From: Candidatus Saccharimonadota bacterium
GTDB taxonomy: Bacteria > Patescibacteriota > Saccharimonadia > Saccharimonadales > Saccharimonadaceae
NCBI GenBank assembly: GCA_016282495.1
Contig: JAEEKR010000014.1
Span: 1 to 57,265 of the forward strand
Direction of reading: 5' to 3'
DNA: 57,265 nucleotides
In this document: one piece after another, positions 8,858 to 26,609 of the stretch
Layout: each line of letters starts with the position of its first letter
Position numbering within the stretch: the first letter of the stretch is position 1
Notes under the pieces: model-generated
Told to the model about the DNA's origin: nothing
The model's database searches: none
What the model saw: the letters and a program-made list of their open reading frames with translations, nothing else
Program-made: the position numbers and the translations under genes

Positions 8858-9034
8858 TTACACGACGCCAGCTCCTTTGCAAGTAGGGCAGGCTCTGTTT
8901 GGCTCAAAAAGGCCGCCAGTAATCTGTCCTTTGCCGTTGCAAGTCGGGCAAGGTCGTTTGCTGCTTGCACAGTGGGCTGCTGCCTCCTTTTCGGTAAGGC
9001 AGGGTTTGCCACAGTGCGGGCAAGCATAGGTCAT
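8858..9034 (-). CDS. Small Cys-rich protein with DnaJ-type CxxCxGxG zinc motif
   Basis: MTYACPHCGKPCLTEKEAAAHCASSKRPCPTCNGKGQITGGLFEPNRACPTCKGAGVV; AGAGG SD upstream. Confidence 0.75.
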   Translation of the reverse strand: MTYACPHCGKPCLTEKEAAAHCASSKRPCPTCNGKGQITGGLFEPNRACPTCKGAGVV

Positions 9035-9109
9035 AAGGTTCACCTCTTTTCTATGATGAATTATCAGAAAAAATTGGAGTGTGACAAGATAATACCAGTT
9101 TTTATCATC

Positions 9110-12100
9110 TTATGCAAGCATGAGTTCAATGAATTCTTTGATGTCTTTATGATTTTTATCGACATCTGGCTCGATGTGGAGTGGCGAATCTTCGTTTAAG
9201 AAGTCGAGGTTTTTGATATGGAAGAATACGGAAGATAAAAGTTTTTTGAAGGTTTCGAAGTCTTTGTCGTTATATTCGTAGACTTTATCATAGACTTCGT
9301 CGTCTTTATCTGGATTTACGAAGAGGATATGGCCATTTGTGACGGTGTAATTGCGGTAAGTTGGTGACGCATTTAAAAGGAGTTTATAGAAATTGAGTTG
9401 GAGCATATAACGGAGAAGAGAGGCATTTCCCCACCAGTTTTTGGTGGAATGATAGACTCCAGTCTTGAAGTCGTAAACTTCAATAGTCTTTTTCTCTTTA
9501 TCGATTGTGATGTGGTCGATTTTGCCGGTAATAGGGATATCGTTATAAGCGAGATGTTCTGGATAGAAATCGACCTCTGCTTTGCCAGCGCGGATGATTC
9601 TTCCGAAAGCTTTAAGTGATATCTCGAGAGCGTGCTTGCCGCGTTCTAATAATTCTTCGATGTCTTCTGGTGGGAGTGGGGTCTTTTTGGCCTTTTCTAG
9701 ATAGAGGCTGATTGCTTCTTCGTCGCTGATGTTTTCTTTGGTGATTTTCTCGAAGATTTCGTGAATGAGGCTGCCATATTCTAGGCTAATACTGGTTGGC
9801 TCGCCTGGGGCTTTTAAGAGGTAGATGTTGTAGAAACTAAGTGGGCCGGCGTAGACAATATCGACAAAAGTAGAGAGGTGAGTGGCGGAGAGTTTAAGAT
9901 TCTCGACGCGTTTTTCGATGATCGGGCGAAGCTTTGGAGTGAGATTTTGGTATTTGGCGGTCCAGCTGGCACGAAGGTCGGTACATATTTGACTACCTTT
10001 AATATCTTCTTTGTGGTTTACTACGAGTTGGTTTGGTAGATATGGGGAGATGAGCTCGTTCTTGTCGTTTAGAAATTCGGAGAGATATTCAAGGTGTTTT
10101 GGCGATTTGCCGGAGAAATCTTTGACGGAGCTGGTGATAGTTAGGTTGGTTTTAGCACGAGTTGCGGCGACGAAAAGGAGGCGAATGCGTTCGCTATCGG
10201 TGGCGCCGGTGTGGCGGATAAAGGTGAGGTTTTTAGGGAGCGATAGCATATTGTTATTCCCTTTGCCTTTGCCCCAGGCGCTGTCGTCGGCGGCGATAAG
10301 GAAGACATGAGAAAACTCAAGACCTTTAGACTTGTGTGCCGAGAGGACTTGAACGGCATCTTCGGCATCTTTGTATGGACTGGTGCTGGTTAGAGGTGTG
10401 TTTGCAGCCTCGTAATCGTCAATAAATTCGATGAGGTCTTTTAGCTTTGGAGATTCGACTCTTAGGTGTGCTTTTAGTTTTTCTTTAAGAACGTGGAGGG
10501 ATTCGTAGAGCTCAAAGTTTAGACCCTCGGAAGAATTTTTGGTGTAGAATTCGAGGAAATCAGATTTAAACTCTAGATTATCTAGCTTGGTGGTGCCGAT
10601 GATGCAATCCAGGATATATTCTAGAGGTAGATTTAAGGATTTTAGGACGAGCGCAGAGAGGAAGGTGCCAATGTTTTTGAGCTTTTCGTCATCTGATTCC
10701 ATGAGATAGTCAAGGCCGGATTTGTGGCTTTTTGCGGCGTTTTCAACGGCTTTGATGGCGGTGTAAGTATCGACTTCCCAGAAATCAAAACCAAGGATTT
10801 CGAGGAGTAGGTTGGCGGTTGGTTTGCTGTTTGCGGTATTAAAAATAAAGCGGGCGATGGTGAGAATTTGGTGGACATATTCGTTTTCAAAGAGGTTTTC
10901 GCGTTTTTCGTAGGCGATGTTGATTTCGGGATGGTTTTTTAAGTATGGCAAAATCGGCGTGATGTATTTGTGCTTTGGCGCGATGATAGCGATTTCGTTT
11001 TGTGGTACGCCAGCATTGACTAAGTTGGAGATTTTGTCGGCGATCCAAAAATATTCGGCGTCGGAAGACAAAAACTCATGGCGAGAAATCTGGGATTTTG
11101 CTGGATTTTCTAGATGAGAAACGAGGGATTTGTTTAGGTTTAGCTCTGGTTCGGTTTTAATAAAACTGTCGTCTACTTGGTCGATAATTTTGCGAGAAAA
11201 ATCGAGGATTTCTTGAGTGCTGCGGTAGTTGTGGACGAGATTAATCACCTTGGCTTGGTAGTGATTTTTGAAATTTTTGAGGCTGGAGGCGCTAGCGCCT
11301 TGGAATTCAAAAATGGCTTGGTCGTCGTCGCCTACGGCCATGACGATTGGATTTTCGTAGTCTGTGAGCTGCTTGATAATCTCGAATTCTTCTGGGTTGG
11401 TGTCCTGAAACTCGTCGAGGAGGATAAACTGATATTTTTCAGAGAGAGTGAGGCGAAAACCGGTATCATTTTTAAGAACGTTGATGGCCTCGTGAATCAT
11501 ATCGGCAAAGTCAAAGAGATTGTTTTCCTCGAGATATTTTTGATAAATTGCCATGATGTGAGAAAGCGAGAGGAGTTTTTTATTGGCGATGCGGTCTTTC
11601 AAGCGATAGTTTTTGTTATTGTCTTTTTCAAAATAAGAATCTTTCCAAGCCGATAGCGGCCTGATTGAGTTTGTAGCTTTAGCTTCGTCCAAAGCTTTCT
11701 CTAGATCTTTGGCAATGTCGCCGATATTTCTTGGGACATTATTTACAATAAAGTCGTTTTTGGTGTGATTTTTTAGAACTTCGAAGATTGGTTCGTAGAC
11801 TTCTTTTAGATTTGGCTCAAAAACGCGCGGAGTGAGATTAACGAGAAATTCGGAGATGACTCTACTTAAGACTTCGCTATCCTCGAGGTTTTTCTCGGCG
11901 ACTTTAGCTAGGTCTTCGGCGGTGAGGCCAGCGGATTTGGCGGAATTAATGGTGTCAGCGATGTCGGCGGCGCCGTCGCCTCTTAAAATATCAGAAGGAT
12001 CGAGTGTGCTTTGAATGTTTTTGATGATTTTAAACTTGGTGACGTCATCGATTGGCTCGTCGAAGCGGCGGTTGATTTTTTCGGAATAATTATTGTAAGC

Positions 12101-19167: not shown

Positions 19168-22100
19168 TTACACGGTTGTAGTGCGATTTCTAATATCGTT
19201 GTAGATGATGGCGTACTCTGTTATGACGGTTTCTGAATCAACCGCGACGTTATTACCAGAATCTATATAGGTTTTCTTAGTATAGTCATTGTCGTCTGTG
19301 AAATCATATCTGGTAGATGGGTCATATTCGGCGATGTAGTTTAGATACTTCATTGTTTCTAGAGCAATAATAACATTCTCCTTTGTTAAACCAGATTGTC
19401 GTGCAAGAACCCCTTCATAGGAATTATCTAGAGGGTGATTACTATAATATTCTTCTAGATATGCAACTTCGGATGAAGTATACTCTGGGTCGATAGACTC
19501 CATTAGGCGCTGGTCTTCAAGGAAGCGTTGATAATATTCGCCTTCTTCTGACCAGCTTGGAGTAGCAGAAGTGACTCCATTCCCATAATCGGCTCCCCCT
19601 GATGTATTACCCGCTACGCACGTTTCTCCCGTGATCCAGCCAATATTCCTTGCTACGTTAGTGTTTTGGATTACATCTAATGCATCGCCTATGATAGGGA
19701 TTGCACCAATACCGGAATTAGCTATCGTATTTGCGGCTTCAGAATCTGTTTCTACTGTGCCAACTTGGAAGTCATTTGAGATGTTCTGATCGGCAAAGCC
19801 AAAAGTTGATGAACGTTCGCTACAGTATTTAACGTATTTTGATAAATTAGACCCTTCTTTTATTTTTGGCGCTCCACTTGAGGTTTGGCCATCAAAGTTT
19901 TCGCCACCATCAAGATTTGCTACTCGGTCGATGATGTCGATAGGGTTTTCTTCTATGGTTTTACTTTTTACATCTGTTACAATATACGGGTTGCAGTATG
20001 CGTCGCCTACAGCTCCGATAGATTCTAGGTATGGGCAATTGCCAGTTCCTTCGATCATTTTCGCAGCTGTAACTGCAGATGCAGAAGGAAGTATAGAATT
20101 TAGAGAACTCTTTGTAATATTTCCGAGAGTCGTTAATAAGCCGGAGGCTGTGTAGCTAGTGGTATAGAATGAAGCAAATTTTGTGAGTAGCGAACCTAAG
20201 AAAGTGTATTGAGATGTCGCATCAAAAGGACTACGGTTGGCGCGTTCGTATTCGGCATTATCAGCGATTACTTTTTCATGTTCAATTGAATAAGCTAAGA
20301 GCCCGCTTTTATTTGTTAATGAACCTCCTCCAGATCTATGATTGCTCCCCATATACATATTTGCGCCAGAAACAAGTGCATTGCCAAGATCCTCTCCAGC
20401 TAGGTTGCTAATCAAATCCCTGGTTAGCATAGCAGCTAGCTTTGGCACGATTAGCTTTATTGCAACTGTTACAGCGGCTCCTATTGCTATACTTGTAGCA
20501 ATACTTACACCAACATCCTTGATTAAAGAAGTTCCCATTGACAATATAGCTTCCACGACTGATATTACGGCGCTTGCTGCTGCGGTTGCGATTTTAGCGA
20601 TAGTACAAGTCACAAATGATACTGCTCCAACTCCAAGTTTTTTTAGTATTCCATCGAAACTTCCTGAAATATTGAACGATTGGACACTCGGGTCGTTTTG
20701 GTTTACTGCCGTATTGCCATATAAAGCAGCAATTCCCGCAGATTGCATAGCCGATACATTTTCTCTTGTAGTATATTCTTCTATATCATGACTTTCATCA
20801 TCTTCTCTAACACTATCTACGGTGATTCCGTCTTCGTCGGTGACTCTCCAGCTTTTTGTATCAGCGGTAGTCACTAGAGATTCCGATAAGACGTGGATTG
20901 GAGAATCAACACCTTCTCCGTATTGTGTTTTTTGAATGGCTTCAGTAAAACTCGATATTAATTTGACAACTTGTAAACCTTCAGCCGCTGCAGCTAGGAT
21001 GCTAATTGAACCAATAACACCTGCGACTGCGCATACGACGTTTGCTGTCATTTGTGCTACATTAGCTGCGCCAGAGGCTTTGGCTGCCTTGGCTGATTTT
21101 GCTACTTTATTAGCCTCTGCTTTAACGTCATCAACGTCCATCCCAGCCTTTACCTTTGACTCTTCGCCTGGGACCTCGCTAATTTCTCCGGTTTTTGTCC
21201 CGTCATCGTTCGTTTTCGATTCGATATCCCCTACTTTCGCCCTCCCAGATACTTCGTCTGCACCTTTACTCATATCTGATTTTGCGACATCTAGCTCTGC
21301 CGCTTTCGCAGACTTAGTATTTCCTGCCTCCTCTGCTTCCACCCTTTCTCGGAAGTTTTTGAAGTGGTTTCGCGAGGTGTCTATTCTATTTATGAACCGA
21401 AGTGTAAGGTTATCAAACCAGGCTCCAACAGAACCTTTCCAGGTACGAGATGCTTTATTGTAAGCATTTCTAAAATCGGCCAGTTTTGAATATGCCTCAT
21501 CAAAACTTATGGATTTACCAAATTTTTCGCCATCCAGTTCAAACCCATCACCAATTTTTGAGGCTAAACTGTCGTCTGGAGCTATAAGCGTTCTTGTTGG
21601 TGAACCATCATCTAATGCTAAATATGTTTTGCCGCCTATCTCGACTTCTTCTATTCCTTGGGCTTTTAACTTAGCACTTTGTTTAGACGTTATTTTAAAT
21701 TTATGTTTTCCAAAGAATGTCGTATGTATACAATCTTTTGTTAAACCGCCGTTTGTTTGATACCTAAAGAAACTTCTTGATCTTAAGGAAGTACTAACCC
21801 CCATTGAGTCGAAGTTACCAATGAACTGCGAAACTAAGCTAAATGGCATGAGACTTTGGCCACCAAGCATAAGGCCGCCAACGCCCATAAACAGTGCGAT
21901 AATGGCACCAATTGGGCCACCTTTTTTAAGTTTGCCTTTAAGACCGCCTTTTTTGCCTCCGGCTTTGGCTCCACGCACATTATTTATGAAACTTCCGCCA
22001 GCTTCGGCGCCTAGAACACTTGCTGCTCCCGCGCCAGTTTTAGCAATTGGACTAGCTACAGCGCTTTTTTCGGCATCGCCTAGGTTTCTGCTTGCGTCCT

Positions 22101-22272
22101 CTGCTTTTTCGGCTTTTTTTGATCTTTTTGGTTTTGATGTTTTATAAAAATCAGAATCGCCATAGGCGTTATCTTCTTCTGACCCAAAAAGGCCATAAGA
22201 GCGTTCATCTTCTGGCTGAAATAAGCCATACCTCTCTTCTTCGGAATCTCCCTTATTACGACCAAATGCCAT
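19168..22272 (-). CDS. Very large multi-domain membrane protein of unknown function, possible secretion-apparatus component
   Basis: 1034 aa; acidic N-terminus with repeated YGLF motifs, Lys/Gly-rich segment before the first TM, central Ala-rich TM clusters, Cys-containing C-terminal domain. Confidence 0.75.
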   Translation of the reverse strand: MAFGRNKGDSEEERYGLFQPEDERSYGLFGSEEDNAYGDSDFYKTSKPKRSKKAEKAEDASRNLGDAEKSAVASPIAKTGAGAASVLGAEAGGSFINNVRGAKAGGKKGGLKGKLKKGGPIGAIIALFMGVGGLMLGGQSLMPFSLVSQFIGNFDSMGVSTSLRSRSFFRYQTNGGLTKDCIHTTFFGKHKFKITSKQSAKLKAQGIEEVEIGGKTYLALDDGSPTRTLIAPDDSLASKIGDGFELDGEKFGKSISFDEAYSKLADFRNAYNKASRTWKGSVGAWFDNLTLRFINRIDTSRNHFKNFRERVEAEEAGNTKSAKAAELDVAKSDMSKGADEVSGRAKVGDIESKTNDDGTKTGEISEVPGEESKVKAGMDVDDVKAEANKVAKSAKAAKASGAANVAQMTANVVCAVAGVIGSISILAAAAEGLQVVKLISSFTEAIQKTQYGEGVDSPIHVLSESLVTTADTKSWRVTDEDGITVDSVREDDESHDIEEYTTRENVSAMQSAGIAALYGNTAVNQNDPSVQSFNISGSFDGILKKLGVGAVSFVTCTIAKIATAAASAVISVVEAILSMGTSLIKDVGVSIATSIAIGAAVTVAIKLIVPKLAAMLTRDLISNLAGEDLGNALVSGANMYMGSNHRSGGGSLTNKSGLLAYSIEHEKVIADNAEYERANRSPFDATSQYTFLGSLLTKFASFYTTSYTASGLLTTLGNITKSSLNSILPSASAVTAAKMIEGTGNCPYLESIGAVGDAYCNPYIVTDVKSKTIEENPIDIIDRVANLDGGENFDGQTSSGAPKIKEGSNLSKYVKYCSERSSTFGFADQNISNDFQVGTVETDSEAANTIANSGIGAIPIIGDALDVIQNTNVARNIGWITGETCVAGNTSGGADYGNGVTSATPSWSEEGEYYQRFLEDQRLMESIDPEYTSSEVAYLEEYYSNHPLDNSYEGVLARQSGLTKENVIIALETMKYLNYIAEYDPSTRYDFTDDNDYTKKTYIDSGNNVAVDSETVITEYAIIYNDIRNRTTTV

Positions 22273-22351
22273 ATTGGTCTTATTTTATATCATGTGGCCA
22301 AAAAACACAAGCATATTGACTTTTCTGGATATTTGTGCTCATAATGAGATT

Positions 22352-22552
22352 ATGAGTCGCCAAAACAAACATTCTAAAAATCAGATCTATGAACCAAAAA
22401 GGTGTTGGGTTGGTGAGATTCAAAAGATCTGCTATGCCTCAAAAGAAGAAGCTGAAGTGGCGGCTAAAGTTACTGAATATGATCATGGTGCTAAAAATCT
22501 TGGCGTTTATAAATGCGAGTATGGTGATCATTGGCATTTGAGTTCGAAGTAG
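22352..22552 (+). CDS. Small conserved-looking protein with YKCEYGDHWHLSS tail
   Basis: ATG at 22352 with TTGACT-18 bp-CATAAT exactly 6 nt upstream; 66 aa. Confidence 0.6.
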   Translation: MSRQNKHSKNQIYEPKRCWVGEIQKICYASKEEAEVAAKVTEYDHGAKNLGVYKCEYGDHWHLSSK

Positions 22553-24524
22553 TTTTTTTCATGATGCCACTATCGGGAGCCTTTACAGGCAATTTTTTAT
22601 TGTATTTGGTTTTATTTTTGATAAGTATTGTTTGTGGTTCTCCACGTTCTCCTGTGTTTGAAAATGGTATTAATGAAATTGTATTATCGATATTTTTGTT
22701 TAAATCTGTGATGGTAAAATGATTTTCGGTTAACTTGCCAAGGAACGCATCATTTAGGATTAGATATACATTCTCTTCTTCCGATTTTGAAAAATCAATT
22801 GTGATTGAGTTTTCGTTTTCAGCATAATTGATTATTTTTGTTTCTGTTTCTACTTCATCTATTTTACTTAAGACATCGAGTTTGGCAGACATGGTGCCAA
22901 TTAAACCATTTTTGTCTGTAATTCTAACTTGGATATATCCTGAAACTGGTTCGAAGTAAACTTTGTTGATGGTGGGGTTAACTGTGGTTGTTTCAAAAAC
23001 ACCGTCACAGTCTAAATCCCATTCGTATTTCGTAATATTCGACGAGGCAATTGAGCTGCTTGCATCAAAGAGCAGTTCTTCCCCTACGAGAGCACTGTAT
23101 TCCGGATTGGAAAGAATTGCAGTCGGTCTTTCGATAATGCTATCTGTAGATAAACTGAGCTCTCCAGTAACATCGTATACTTTGCCTCCAGTAGATTCGG
23201 CTAGACTATGATATTCTTCGGCTGTTTCTGGTGTTGTGATGATATAGAAATTTACTGGATCAATTTCTAGACTACGTCTTACGACTTGGTGAAAACTAAC
23301 TTTATCTATGTCGATTGGATGATAACCAGCATCTGTTAGAAGTACAACAGTTTTTACGGCCCCAAGCTTCCATTTTTCGGTGTCTAATACTTTTAGTGAT
23401 GCCGACATTGCCGATTCTAATTCGTCGCCACCGCCAGAAACGGTGATGGAATCCAGTTCTTCTTTGAATGTGTCTAAGGTGCACGTTTCAAATCCGCAAT
23501 GCCTAATTGGATCGAACGGATCGGAAAGATCCCGATATTCGTATAATGCGATGCGGCCGTCCATATCTATGGCTTCCTTAGCTAGTCTTAGAGCCTCAGA
23601 TTTGTATTTTTCGATTAAGCCAGACATTGAGCCAGTTGAATCTATCAAGATTGCTACATCGTGCGTTGATAGATTGACCTCGACTTTTGGTATTTTATCT
23701 GGAAAATGATCAGAAAGCTTATTATTAATTACTTTTGCTAATTTGTCATATATACCGTCTGATACGTAAGAGACGTGGCTTTTTAATGGCTGGAGGATTG
23801 AAATATATTTGCTACAAATTATGTCGTGATAATTACACCAAGCACCTAGTTTGTCGATATAGTTATTTGGTTGATACGGATCATTTTTCCCCAATATTCC
23901 TTCATATGCTTTGCAGTCTGGCACGTAAGCACGGTAATTAGATAAGTTTTTACCGCGGCAAGCGTCTGGATTTGATCCAGAACCTTCTGGTAAGTACAGT
24001 TTTGGGTCCCCTAAAGTGGCGGCGTAAATTATTTTGGAAGAATCTATTGTCTTGATGGCGTTAGACACTACAAGGCCGCCCTGTGAATATCCAGAAATTA
24101 CATATTTAGTTGATTTGCAGTTAGAACTTGTAGCATTGATATAAGAAGTCAACTCTTCCGTTCCTGTTTTTACACTATCGCCAAACGCATAAGATTCTCC
24201 TGCGCTCACATAAGCACCTATACTGTTGATAACTTCAGACAACGAATTAAACCCGATTGCCGTAGCGGGATACTGGTGACCATTCTGTGGCGAGCTGCCT
24301 AGTTCGTAAAAACTGTATTTTATACTTTTACCGCTGATGTTCTCTTCGATTTTGTTTTTAAATTCTTGATAATTTTTATCATTTAATGATTCGCCTGAAC
24401 CTCTTGCGAATACAAAAGCCACGTCTTTACATTCATCCTTTGAAATAGTTTGGCTGTTTTGAACGTTTAGTAATAGCAGCGGCAAAAGTAGCAAGCTGTA
24501 TTTGATTTTATTAAGATATTCCAT
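22491..24524 (-). CDS. Secreted cutinase-family esterase fused to VWA and PKD-like domains
   Basis: Signal peptide; VAFVFARGSGES, VISGYSQGGLVV, CNYHDIIC...H cutinase motifs; VAILIDSTGSMSG VWA MIDAS; LFDASSSIASSNITKYEWDLDCDG PKD-like. Confidence 0.85.
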   Translation of the reverse strand: MEYLNKIKYSLLLLPLLLLNVQNSQTISKDECKDVAFVFARGSGESLNDKNYQEFKNKIEENISGKSIKYSFYELGSSPQNGHQYPATAIGFNSLSEVINSIGAYVSAGESYAFGDSVKTGTEELTSYINATSSNCKSTKYVISGYSQGGLVVSNAIKTIDSSKIIYAATLGDPKLYLPEGSGSNPDACRGKNLSNYRAYVPDCKAYEGILGKNDPYQPNNYIDKLGAWCNYHDIICSKYISILQPLKSHVSYVSDGIYDKLAKVINNKLSDHFPDKIPKVEVNLSTHDVAILIDSTGSMSGLIEKYKSEALRLAKEAIDMDGRIALYEYRDLSDPFDPIRHCGFETCTLDTFKEELDSITVSGGGDELESAMSASLKVLDTEKWKLGAVKTVVLLTDAGYHPIDIDKVSFHQVVRRSLEIDPVNFYIITTPETAEEYHSLAESTGGKVYDVTGELSLSTDSIIERPTAILSNPEYSALVGEELLFDASSSIASSNITKYEWDLDCDGVFETTTVNPTINKVYFEPVSGYIQVRITDKNGLIGTMSAKLDVLSKIDEVETETKIINYAENENSITIDFSKSEEENVYLILNDAFLGKLTENHFTITDLNKNIDNTISLIPFSNTGERGEPQTILIKNKTKYNKKLPVKAPDSGIMKKTTSNSNANDHHTRIYKRQDF

Positions 24525-25196: not shown

Positions 25197-26609
25197 TTAT
25201 TGATTTTGCGCTTCATTTTGTGATTGATGCAAATATAGGAAGATAGGTAAGGTACCAACTCTGGTATCTTTGGCGGTTTCACTCCACTGACTATCGCCAG
25301 TATACATACCACCTTTATATAGATTTGTCCCTGTATAAACATATGAAGAATTTGTGTCGTGATAATCCCTGGCGCCTGTTCCGTTGAAAGTTTCGGTGAA
25401 CATAGCGATGCTAGATAATGTTGATAAATCGTTTTTAAGATTAAATCTCTTAGTATTATATTTAAACTGTGAAATTTCCCTCTTAATTGCATCGATAGCT
25501 GCCGGTGCAAAGTCTTCGAAATAGATTCCTTTTGGCACAAGTGTGGTGGTTTGCCCTAGTTTTTGGCCATTATGAAGATAGGTGCTGAAATTGCAACCCG
25601 ACTCTCTGTAGTGGATAGCACAGATCGTTTCTGGAAGAATATTTAATCCAGTTTCTTCTTTGACTGTATTGGCAATTTCTTTGTAGGTTTCGATATGCTT
25701 TTCGTAGATGTTTTTAACTTCTTCAAGTTGTTTTTTCATGGAATCGGTAAGCTCTAGTTTTACGTTCATGTCCATTTCTACTGTATCGTCTGGGTTTTGG
25801 ATGTTTTCAGCTGTTGTTCCACTTGCTTCTGTTCCATTTTCGGTAGTGGTTTCGGTTTTTGTACTTTCTTCTTTTGTCGTTTCTTCTTTTGTGGTGCTTG
25901 TCTCAGGTATAGTAACTTCGTTTGTTTCTTCATTGAATGAGAAAGGCGTTTCTTGTTTTGGTTCGTCTACGATGTTTTCTATACTGTTGCCGTTGGTTGG
26001 TTCGGCAGCATACGTTTTTTTATTGCCTTTTTTGGCGCTAGCAACTGTCGTGACTGTAGCTGCAACGAGTAGTGCCGCAATGACCTTTTGTCCTATTCGC
26101 TTGCGTCTATTCTTAATTTCGCGTGCTTTTTCTGAAAGATTATCCGTTTCTTTTTTAGCTTCCTGTTGTTGATGATGGTGAACTTTAGTTTTTTCTATTG
26201 GAGAAAAACTTTTTTCGGATTTCGTGAAATCTTCATCTGTAAAATGCAGTGTTGAAGGTTGAATTTTTGGGATTTCGAGATTTGTAGTTGAGCTAGAATG
26301 CTTAGAGTTTGGAATTGATGGCGGAGAGAATCGTTTAGTTGGTTGGTCGATTTTTTCGTCTGGTGAATTTTTTTCTGATTTAAAGTGTGGAATTTCAATG
26401 GAACCTTGAGTTTTGGGTTGACTATTTGGTAGTGGCCCAAGTGTCAGATTTTTGTTGTTTGCGGGAGAATCGTAACGCGGGTCTATTTTATCAAATTCTC
26501 GTTCTATCTCTCTCGTTATTCTTTTGATTTCTGCTTCTACGTCAATAGATTCCCATTCATTGGGAGATTGTTCATTATTTGTAGAACCGATTTTTTCTGG
26601 TAAACCCAT
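25197..26609 (-). CDS. Membrane-anchored putative lysozyme/lytic-transglycosylase-like protein
   Basis: Long disordered N-terminus, TM (KVIAALLVAATVTTVASA), Thr/Glu-rich linker, C-terminal TICAIHYRESGCNFSTYLHNGQKL...FNGTGARDYHDTNSSYVYTGTNLYKGGMY. Confidence 0.65.
   Translation of the reverse strand: MGLPEKIGSTNNEQSPNEWESIDVEAEIKRITREIEREFDKIDPRYDSPANNKNLTLGPLPNSQPKTQGSIEIPHFKSEKNSPDEKIDQPTKRFSPPSIPNSKHSSSTTNLEIPKIQPSTLHFTDEDFTKSEKSFSPIEKTKVHHHQQQEAKKETDNLSEKAREIKNRRKRIGQKVIAALLVAATVTTVASAKKGNKKTYAAEPTNGNSIENIVDEPKQETPFSFNEETNEVTIPETSTTKEETTKEESTKTETTTENGTEASGTTAENIQNPDDTVEMDMNVKLELTDSMKKQLEEVKNIYEKHIETYKEIANTVKEETGLNILPETICAIHYRESGCNFSTYLHNGQKLGQTTTLVPKGIYFEDFAPAAIDAIKREISQFKYNTKRFNLKNDLSTLSSIAMFTETFNGTGARDYHDTNSSYVYTGTNLYKGGMYTGDSQWSETAKDTRVGTLPIFLYLHQSQNEAQNQ

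Follow-up and report, generated by a model that had tools for sequence, protein, structure and literature searches.

How the Saccharibacteria attack, or feed from, their actinobacterial hosts is largely unexplained at the enzyme level. The 57,265-nucleotide contig JAEEKR010000014.1 (referred to here as the window), from a Nanosyncoccus-type Saccharibacterium in the same genus as Candidatus Nanosyncoccus alces (L113, NZ_PRLM01000006; genome G175), raises the question of whether these bacteria secrete an esterase for this purpose, since it encodes a protein, P0001, that a sequence-only reading had described as a secreted fusion of cutinase, VWA and PKD-like domains. Pfam profiles and an AlphaFold model confirm this open reading frame and the order of its domains (Table 1). 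Chance can be excluded as the origin of the reading frame because homologues of P0001 are present in 53 of the 199 genomes of the family and cutinase matches are found in 99 of the 104 sampled genomes of the genus. The full-length model, built from a 28-sequence alignment (pLDDT 84, pTM 0.77), has a disordered tail and predicts a further beta domain, absent from the earlier list of domains, between the PKD-like region and the C-terminus.

Table 1. Features of P0001 and their positions in the window.
Feature	Position	Strand	Evidence
P0001, 677-aa ORF, putatively secreted cutinase-VWA-PKD protein	22491..24524	minus	ORF, Pfam and homologues
Signal-peptide-like hydrophobic leader, residues 1-25	24450..24524	minus	read from sequence by eye; low-confidence helices in model
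Cutinase domain, residues 32-263	23736..24431	minus	PF01083 E=2.1e-17; domain model; PDB fold matches
Ser147, putative nucleophile in GYSQG	24084..24086	minus	invariant in 38 homologues; aligned with solved cutinases
Asp234, putative catalytic residue in C-x3-D-x2-C	23823..23825	minus	invariant; aligned with Fusarium cutinase
His250, putative catalytic residue	23775..23777	minus	invariant; aligned with Fusarium cutinase
VWA domain, residues 289-453	23166..23660	minus	PF25106 E=2.8e-10; PF00092 E=5.6e-6
MIDAS DSTGS, residues 295-299	23628..23642	minus	D295-S-T-G-S299
PKD-like beta domain, residues 466-543	22896..23129	minus	PF18911 E=4.7e-4, below cut-off; beta strands in model
Additional C-terminal beta domain, residues about 560-637	22614..22847	minus	strands in model, pLDDT about 79-90
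Sortase-type motif LPVKAPDSG, residues 645-653	22566..22592	minus	counterpart of genus-wide C-terminal PKAPNTG
24-residue tail and stop	22491..22565	minus	enters antisense of convergent gene 22346-22552 (+)

Cutinase fold and catalytic residues

The N-terminal domain of P0001 matches the Pfam Cutinase family (PF01083) with 64.1 bits against a curated cut-off of 25.9 (E=2.1e-17). Because integrin VWA folds swamped the fold search with the full-length model, in which VWA-containing integrin-beta chains rank top, a separate model and search were made for the cutinase domain. The resulting model (38 homologues; pLDDT 91.7, pTM 0.90) matches solved cutinases and acetylxylan esterases: each of the 50 PDB entries listed is a cutinase, a CE5 acetylxylan esterase or a mycobacterial cutinase-like protein, and the two best have TM scores (target) of 0.74 and 0.77. 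The triad proposed from the motifs GYSQG (Ser), CNYHDIIC (Asp) and KSHVSY (His) corresponds to Ser147, Asp234 and His250, which line up with the established triad and do not vary among 38 domain homologues and 28 full-length ones, whose identity falls to as low as 26%. Arg41, Ser43, Gly44 and the cysteines around Asp234 are likewise invariant. In a profile alignment of the homologues, the C-x3-D-x2-C motif and the His match the Fusarium and Trichoderma cutinases. As in the Fusarium enzyme, Asp234 is flanked by cysteines, here predicted to be of the disulphide type. Among the 80 nearest named loci (hereafter near relatives) the GYSQG motif is found in all 80 and the Asp/His motif in 79.

The likeness to cutinases and CE5 enzymes of solved structure (1cex from Fusarium, 4psc from Trichoderma and the Penicillium acetylxylan esterase 1bs9) comprises the fold, GYSQG, C-x3-D-x2-C, the His and an Arg-Gly-Ser strand. 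However, P0001 is only about 17-21% identical to these proteins, its domain is longer and it is fused to the VWA-PKD region. With acetylxylan esterases among its best structural matches, it is as likely to be a glycan deacetylase as a lipase.

MSMEG_6394, Rv3802c and phage LysB belong to the same superfamily and share the triad logic of P0001, but are not close to it in sequence, and we know of no VWA or PKD domain in any of them. Close homology to LysB, a mycolyl-arabinogalactan esterase, was considered and rejected, as the only match, to LysB of phage Rey, has E=2e-3. Mycolic acids are mostly absent from gut Actinobacteria, and LysB lies far from P0001 in the cutinase tree as its most remote row and longest branch. 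Both points make it very unlikely that P0001 hydrolyses mycolyl esters, in the manner of LysB or the mycobacterial cutinase-like proteins, in mycolate-bearing hosts such as Gordonia, an activity with which the weak matches to Rey LysB, to the "Gene 12 protein" 3hc7, to MSMEG_6394 and to Rv3802c would nevertheless be consistent. In its favour too, one Saccharibacterium, Mycosynbacter amalyticus, is described as requiring host mycolic acids (Rose et al. 2025, as cited in PMC12592800).

VWA and PKD domains

Both PF25106 (VWA_4) and PF00092 (VWA) recognise the second domain above cut-off, and its DSTGS sequence conforms to the DxSxS pattern. A VWA domain is found in 78 of the 80 near relatives, 73 of which retain the MIDAS. 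In a genus designated g11 (12 loci examined) the VWA domain has been lost and the triad retained, and the predicted catalytic part is therefore the constant element. The PKD_4 profile (PF18911) scores 20.6 bits on P0001, below its cut-off of 27, and 34.2 bits on the homologous region of an Arthrobacter protein described below. Domains of the VWA and PKD types usually serve in interactions.

Distribution and gene neighbourhood

Outside the genus of P0001, cutinase-encoding genomes comprise 33 in the same family, eight in other families of the order and three in another order, and the gene is patchily absent in other genera of the same family. Across 381 genomes of the phylum, above-cut-off cutinases are confined to the Saccharimonadia. 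The near relatives belong to Saccharibacteria or to an unnamed rumen bacterium, and those with a stated source come mostly from ruminant gut metagenomes.

The main alternative to an envelope substrate would be plant esters from the diet. P0001 would then be a feeding enzyme of the rumen or gut, a CE5-type acetylxylan esterase or cutinase with VWA-PKD as its substrate-binding modules, as might be expected from the ruminant gut origin of its relatives and from the presence of acetylxylan esterases and the Trichoderma CE5 cutinase among the top fold and sequence matches. We consider this unlikely, since the spread of the enzyme family follows lineage throughout the Saccharimonadia and takes in a second order and several further families, the nearest non-saccharibacterial homologue is actinobacterial, and Pfam found no carbohydrate-binding module in P0001.

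In family f33, which belongs to the other order, a longer protein devoid of a VWA domain carries the cutinase domain as its C-terminal part (L145, L148, L175 and L198). These sequences are placed apart from the order-level group in the tree, and it is possible that they represent a separate acquisition. Our literature search found no paper on a saccharibacterial cutinase or on the Rhodococcus cutinase-VWA fusion considered below.

An operon partner or a secretion-system neighbourhood was rejected, as what is conserved around the cutinase gene is a dCMP deaminase, a uracil-DNA glycosylase and, in convergent orientation, a small gene. The small gene, at 22346-22552 (+), is conserved near the cutinase gene in 62 loci and has no Pfam match; its 3' end is overlapped by the cutinase reading frame of P0001. 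There is also no Pfam match to the neighbours at 19168-22272 (-; 1034 aa) and 25197-26609 (-; 470 aa), the latter of which has, by eye, a lytic-transglycosylase-like C-terminus.

Relationship to actinobacterial proteins

The known hosts of Saccharibacteria are Actinobacteria, a phylum that includes Arthrobacter. The link to this phylum made by the sequence-only reading is strengthened by our finding of the whole architecture in Arthrobacter and Rhodococcus, together with the restriction to the Saccharimonadia noted above. Plasmid NZ_CP104273 of Arthrobacter sp. zg-Y1110 carries an 831-aa open reading frame (L137:7821-10316) with the same domain order as P0001, to which it is 33% identical over 89% of P0001; compared with the saccharibacterial protein L026, identity is 42% in the cutinase, 62% in the VWA and 45% in the PKD domain. 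It differs from P0001 in its long Pro/Ser/Thr linker, its C-terminal membrane anchor and the GC content of its locus (60-66%). The plasmid annotation covers only the part of this frame from its middle onward (8886-10316), as a "PKD domain-containing protein". The closest homologues of the 831-aa frame are saccharibacterial. More distant cutinase-VWA-PKD proteins are encoded on Rhodococcus plasmids (e.g. WP_231783644). These "cutinase family proteins" share with P0001 the succession Cutinase, VWA_4, PKD_4, but are only 23-26% identical, and their cutinase domains form a distant clade of their own.

Phylogenetic analysis, in which the actinobacterial comparison set consisted of plasmids and phages only, placed the order-level saccharibacterial cutinases and the Arthrobacter sequence in one deep group (92/82) of the cutinase tree, within which the family of P0001, minus two divergent rows, groups with Arthrobacter (99/98). 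In the full-length tree the Arthrobacter protein groups with L026, L050 and L036 (93/95), inside the saccharibacterial clade. Constraining it to lie outside the family is 20.5 log units worse for the full-length alignment (p-AU 0.053), and the same constraint gives p-AU 0.073 for the cutinase domain alone. The earlier suggestion that the cutinase had been acquired from hosts is thus not established by the phylogeny, and the nested position of the Arthrobacter protein makes a reverse transfer, from parasite to actinobacterium, possible. The shared architecture is evidence of gene exchange between Saccharibacteria and Actinobacteria, which is well supported, although the sequences would allow either direction; a move of the gene out of the parasite into an actinobacterium, or its spread from a donor outside the sample, fits at least as well as a host origin.

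A sortase-type motif at the C-terminus

In 62 of the 80 near relatives the protein stops 2-5 residues past a PKAPNTG-type motif. The consensus C-terminus of the genus is I/V-P-K-A/T-P-N-T-G-R/K-x-COOH, with IPKAPNTGR-COOH as a typical ending, and the entropy at P, K, A, N and T, in rows picked by the P and G adjoining N-T, is 0.9-1.3 bits compared with 3.4-4.0 in the preceding 30 residues. P0001 itself has LPVKAPDSG, followed by 24 more residues whose codons extend into the convergent gene on its antisense strand. A hidden membrane anchor past the stop in another frame was considered and rejected, there being no hydrophobic segment downstream of the motif in any frame of the 12 loci read. The hydrophobic segment and positively charged tail that would follow the motif in an LPxTG-type substrate thus appear to be missing in the genus, and this sortase motif without a membrane anchor, as we read it, is a feature that the sequence-only reading had not reported. 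In two other proteins of the genus, the anchored L241 and L244, a membrane segment comes after PKAPNTG or PKAPDSG, sortases are encoded in all ten genomes tested, and homologues outside the genus often have a C-terminal membrane segment and, in a few cases, an LPxTG-type motif. We infer that the anchor has been lost in the genus, so that the protein is released or fixed in some other way. One speculative and rather doubtful possibility is a natural "sortag", whereby a sortase acting in trans would couple the anchor-less soluble esterase to the surface of the parasite, or even to that of the host. If functional, the anchor-less motif would represent a new way to attach a secreted enzyme to a surface.

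The membrane anchors and LPxTG-type tails of many homologues outside the genus point to the parasite's own surface and, together with the sortases, would agree with a self-directed enzyme that serves in acyl remodelling or surface maturation of the saccharibacterial envelope rather than that of the host. The loss of the anchor in the genus of P0001, the usual role of VWA and PKD domains in interactions and the patchy absence of the gene in other genera of the family, which speaks against a core self function, render this quite improbable.

Proposed function

We favour, with a probability of roughly 0.5, a role for P0001 as a serine esterase of the cutinase/CE5 family that is docked by its VWA-PKD region on a neighbour or host and hydrolyses envelope esters for an epibiont dependent on external fatty acids. 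P0001 would be exported by Sec and act outside the cell, the VWA-PKD part would bind it to an adjacent cell (the best candidate being the actinobacterial host), and its cutinase domain would cut ester bonds in envelope lipids or acylated glycans, thereby weakening the envelope and/or freeing fatty acids that the epibiont may be unable to make. The computations themselves show the cutinase fold, the conserved triad and cysteines, the VWA domain with its MIDAS and the near-universal occurrence in the genus; secretion, docking and hydrolysis of host-envelope esters are inferred from there. The ketoacyl synthase family PF00109 was found in none of 20 genomes of the genus, as against all 14 controls; fatty acids are therefore probably obtained from outside, and such a supply would give a lipase-like enzyme an obvious use. 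Against this proposal we count the acyltransferase family PF01553, which is present in only 10 of the 20 genomes and not in G000 and so weakens the case for a route by which freed fatty acids would be used, the lack of an operon partner, the acetylxylan esterases among the structural matches, and the ruminant gut origin of most near relatives with a stated source, a setting in which the enzyme might instead act on plant esters from the diet. P0001 is a concrete and easily assayed candidate, being a predicted secreted protein that is conserved in the lineage and has a full triad, and its bearers seemingly lack fatty-acid synthesis.

In-frame TGA codons in g11

The cutinase homologues of six g11 genomes (L037, L038, L039, L040, L041 and L042) contain in-frame TGA codons, mostly at Trp positions. 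Within the coding part the next base is always A, and one site, E-TGA-R, is common to five genomes. A genome-wide TGA=Trp code in g11 is rejected, since the 22,821 aligned codons of G094 contain no further in-frame TGA, none is present in ValS (matches of 18 genomes) and RF2 is intact. A degenerate pattern for tRNA-Trp(UCA) matched no genome at all and is hence uninformative. These codons look like cases of gene-specific UGA read-through, in which tRNA-Trp may take part, rather than a new code. Comparison of L039 with L041, which have two TGA codons in common, gives a dN/dS of about 0.07, indicative of purifying selection.
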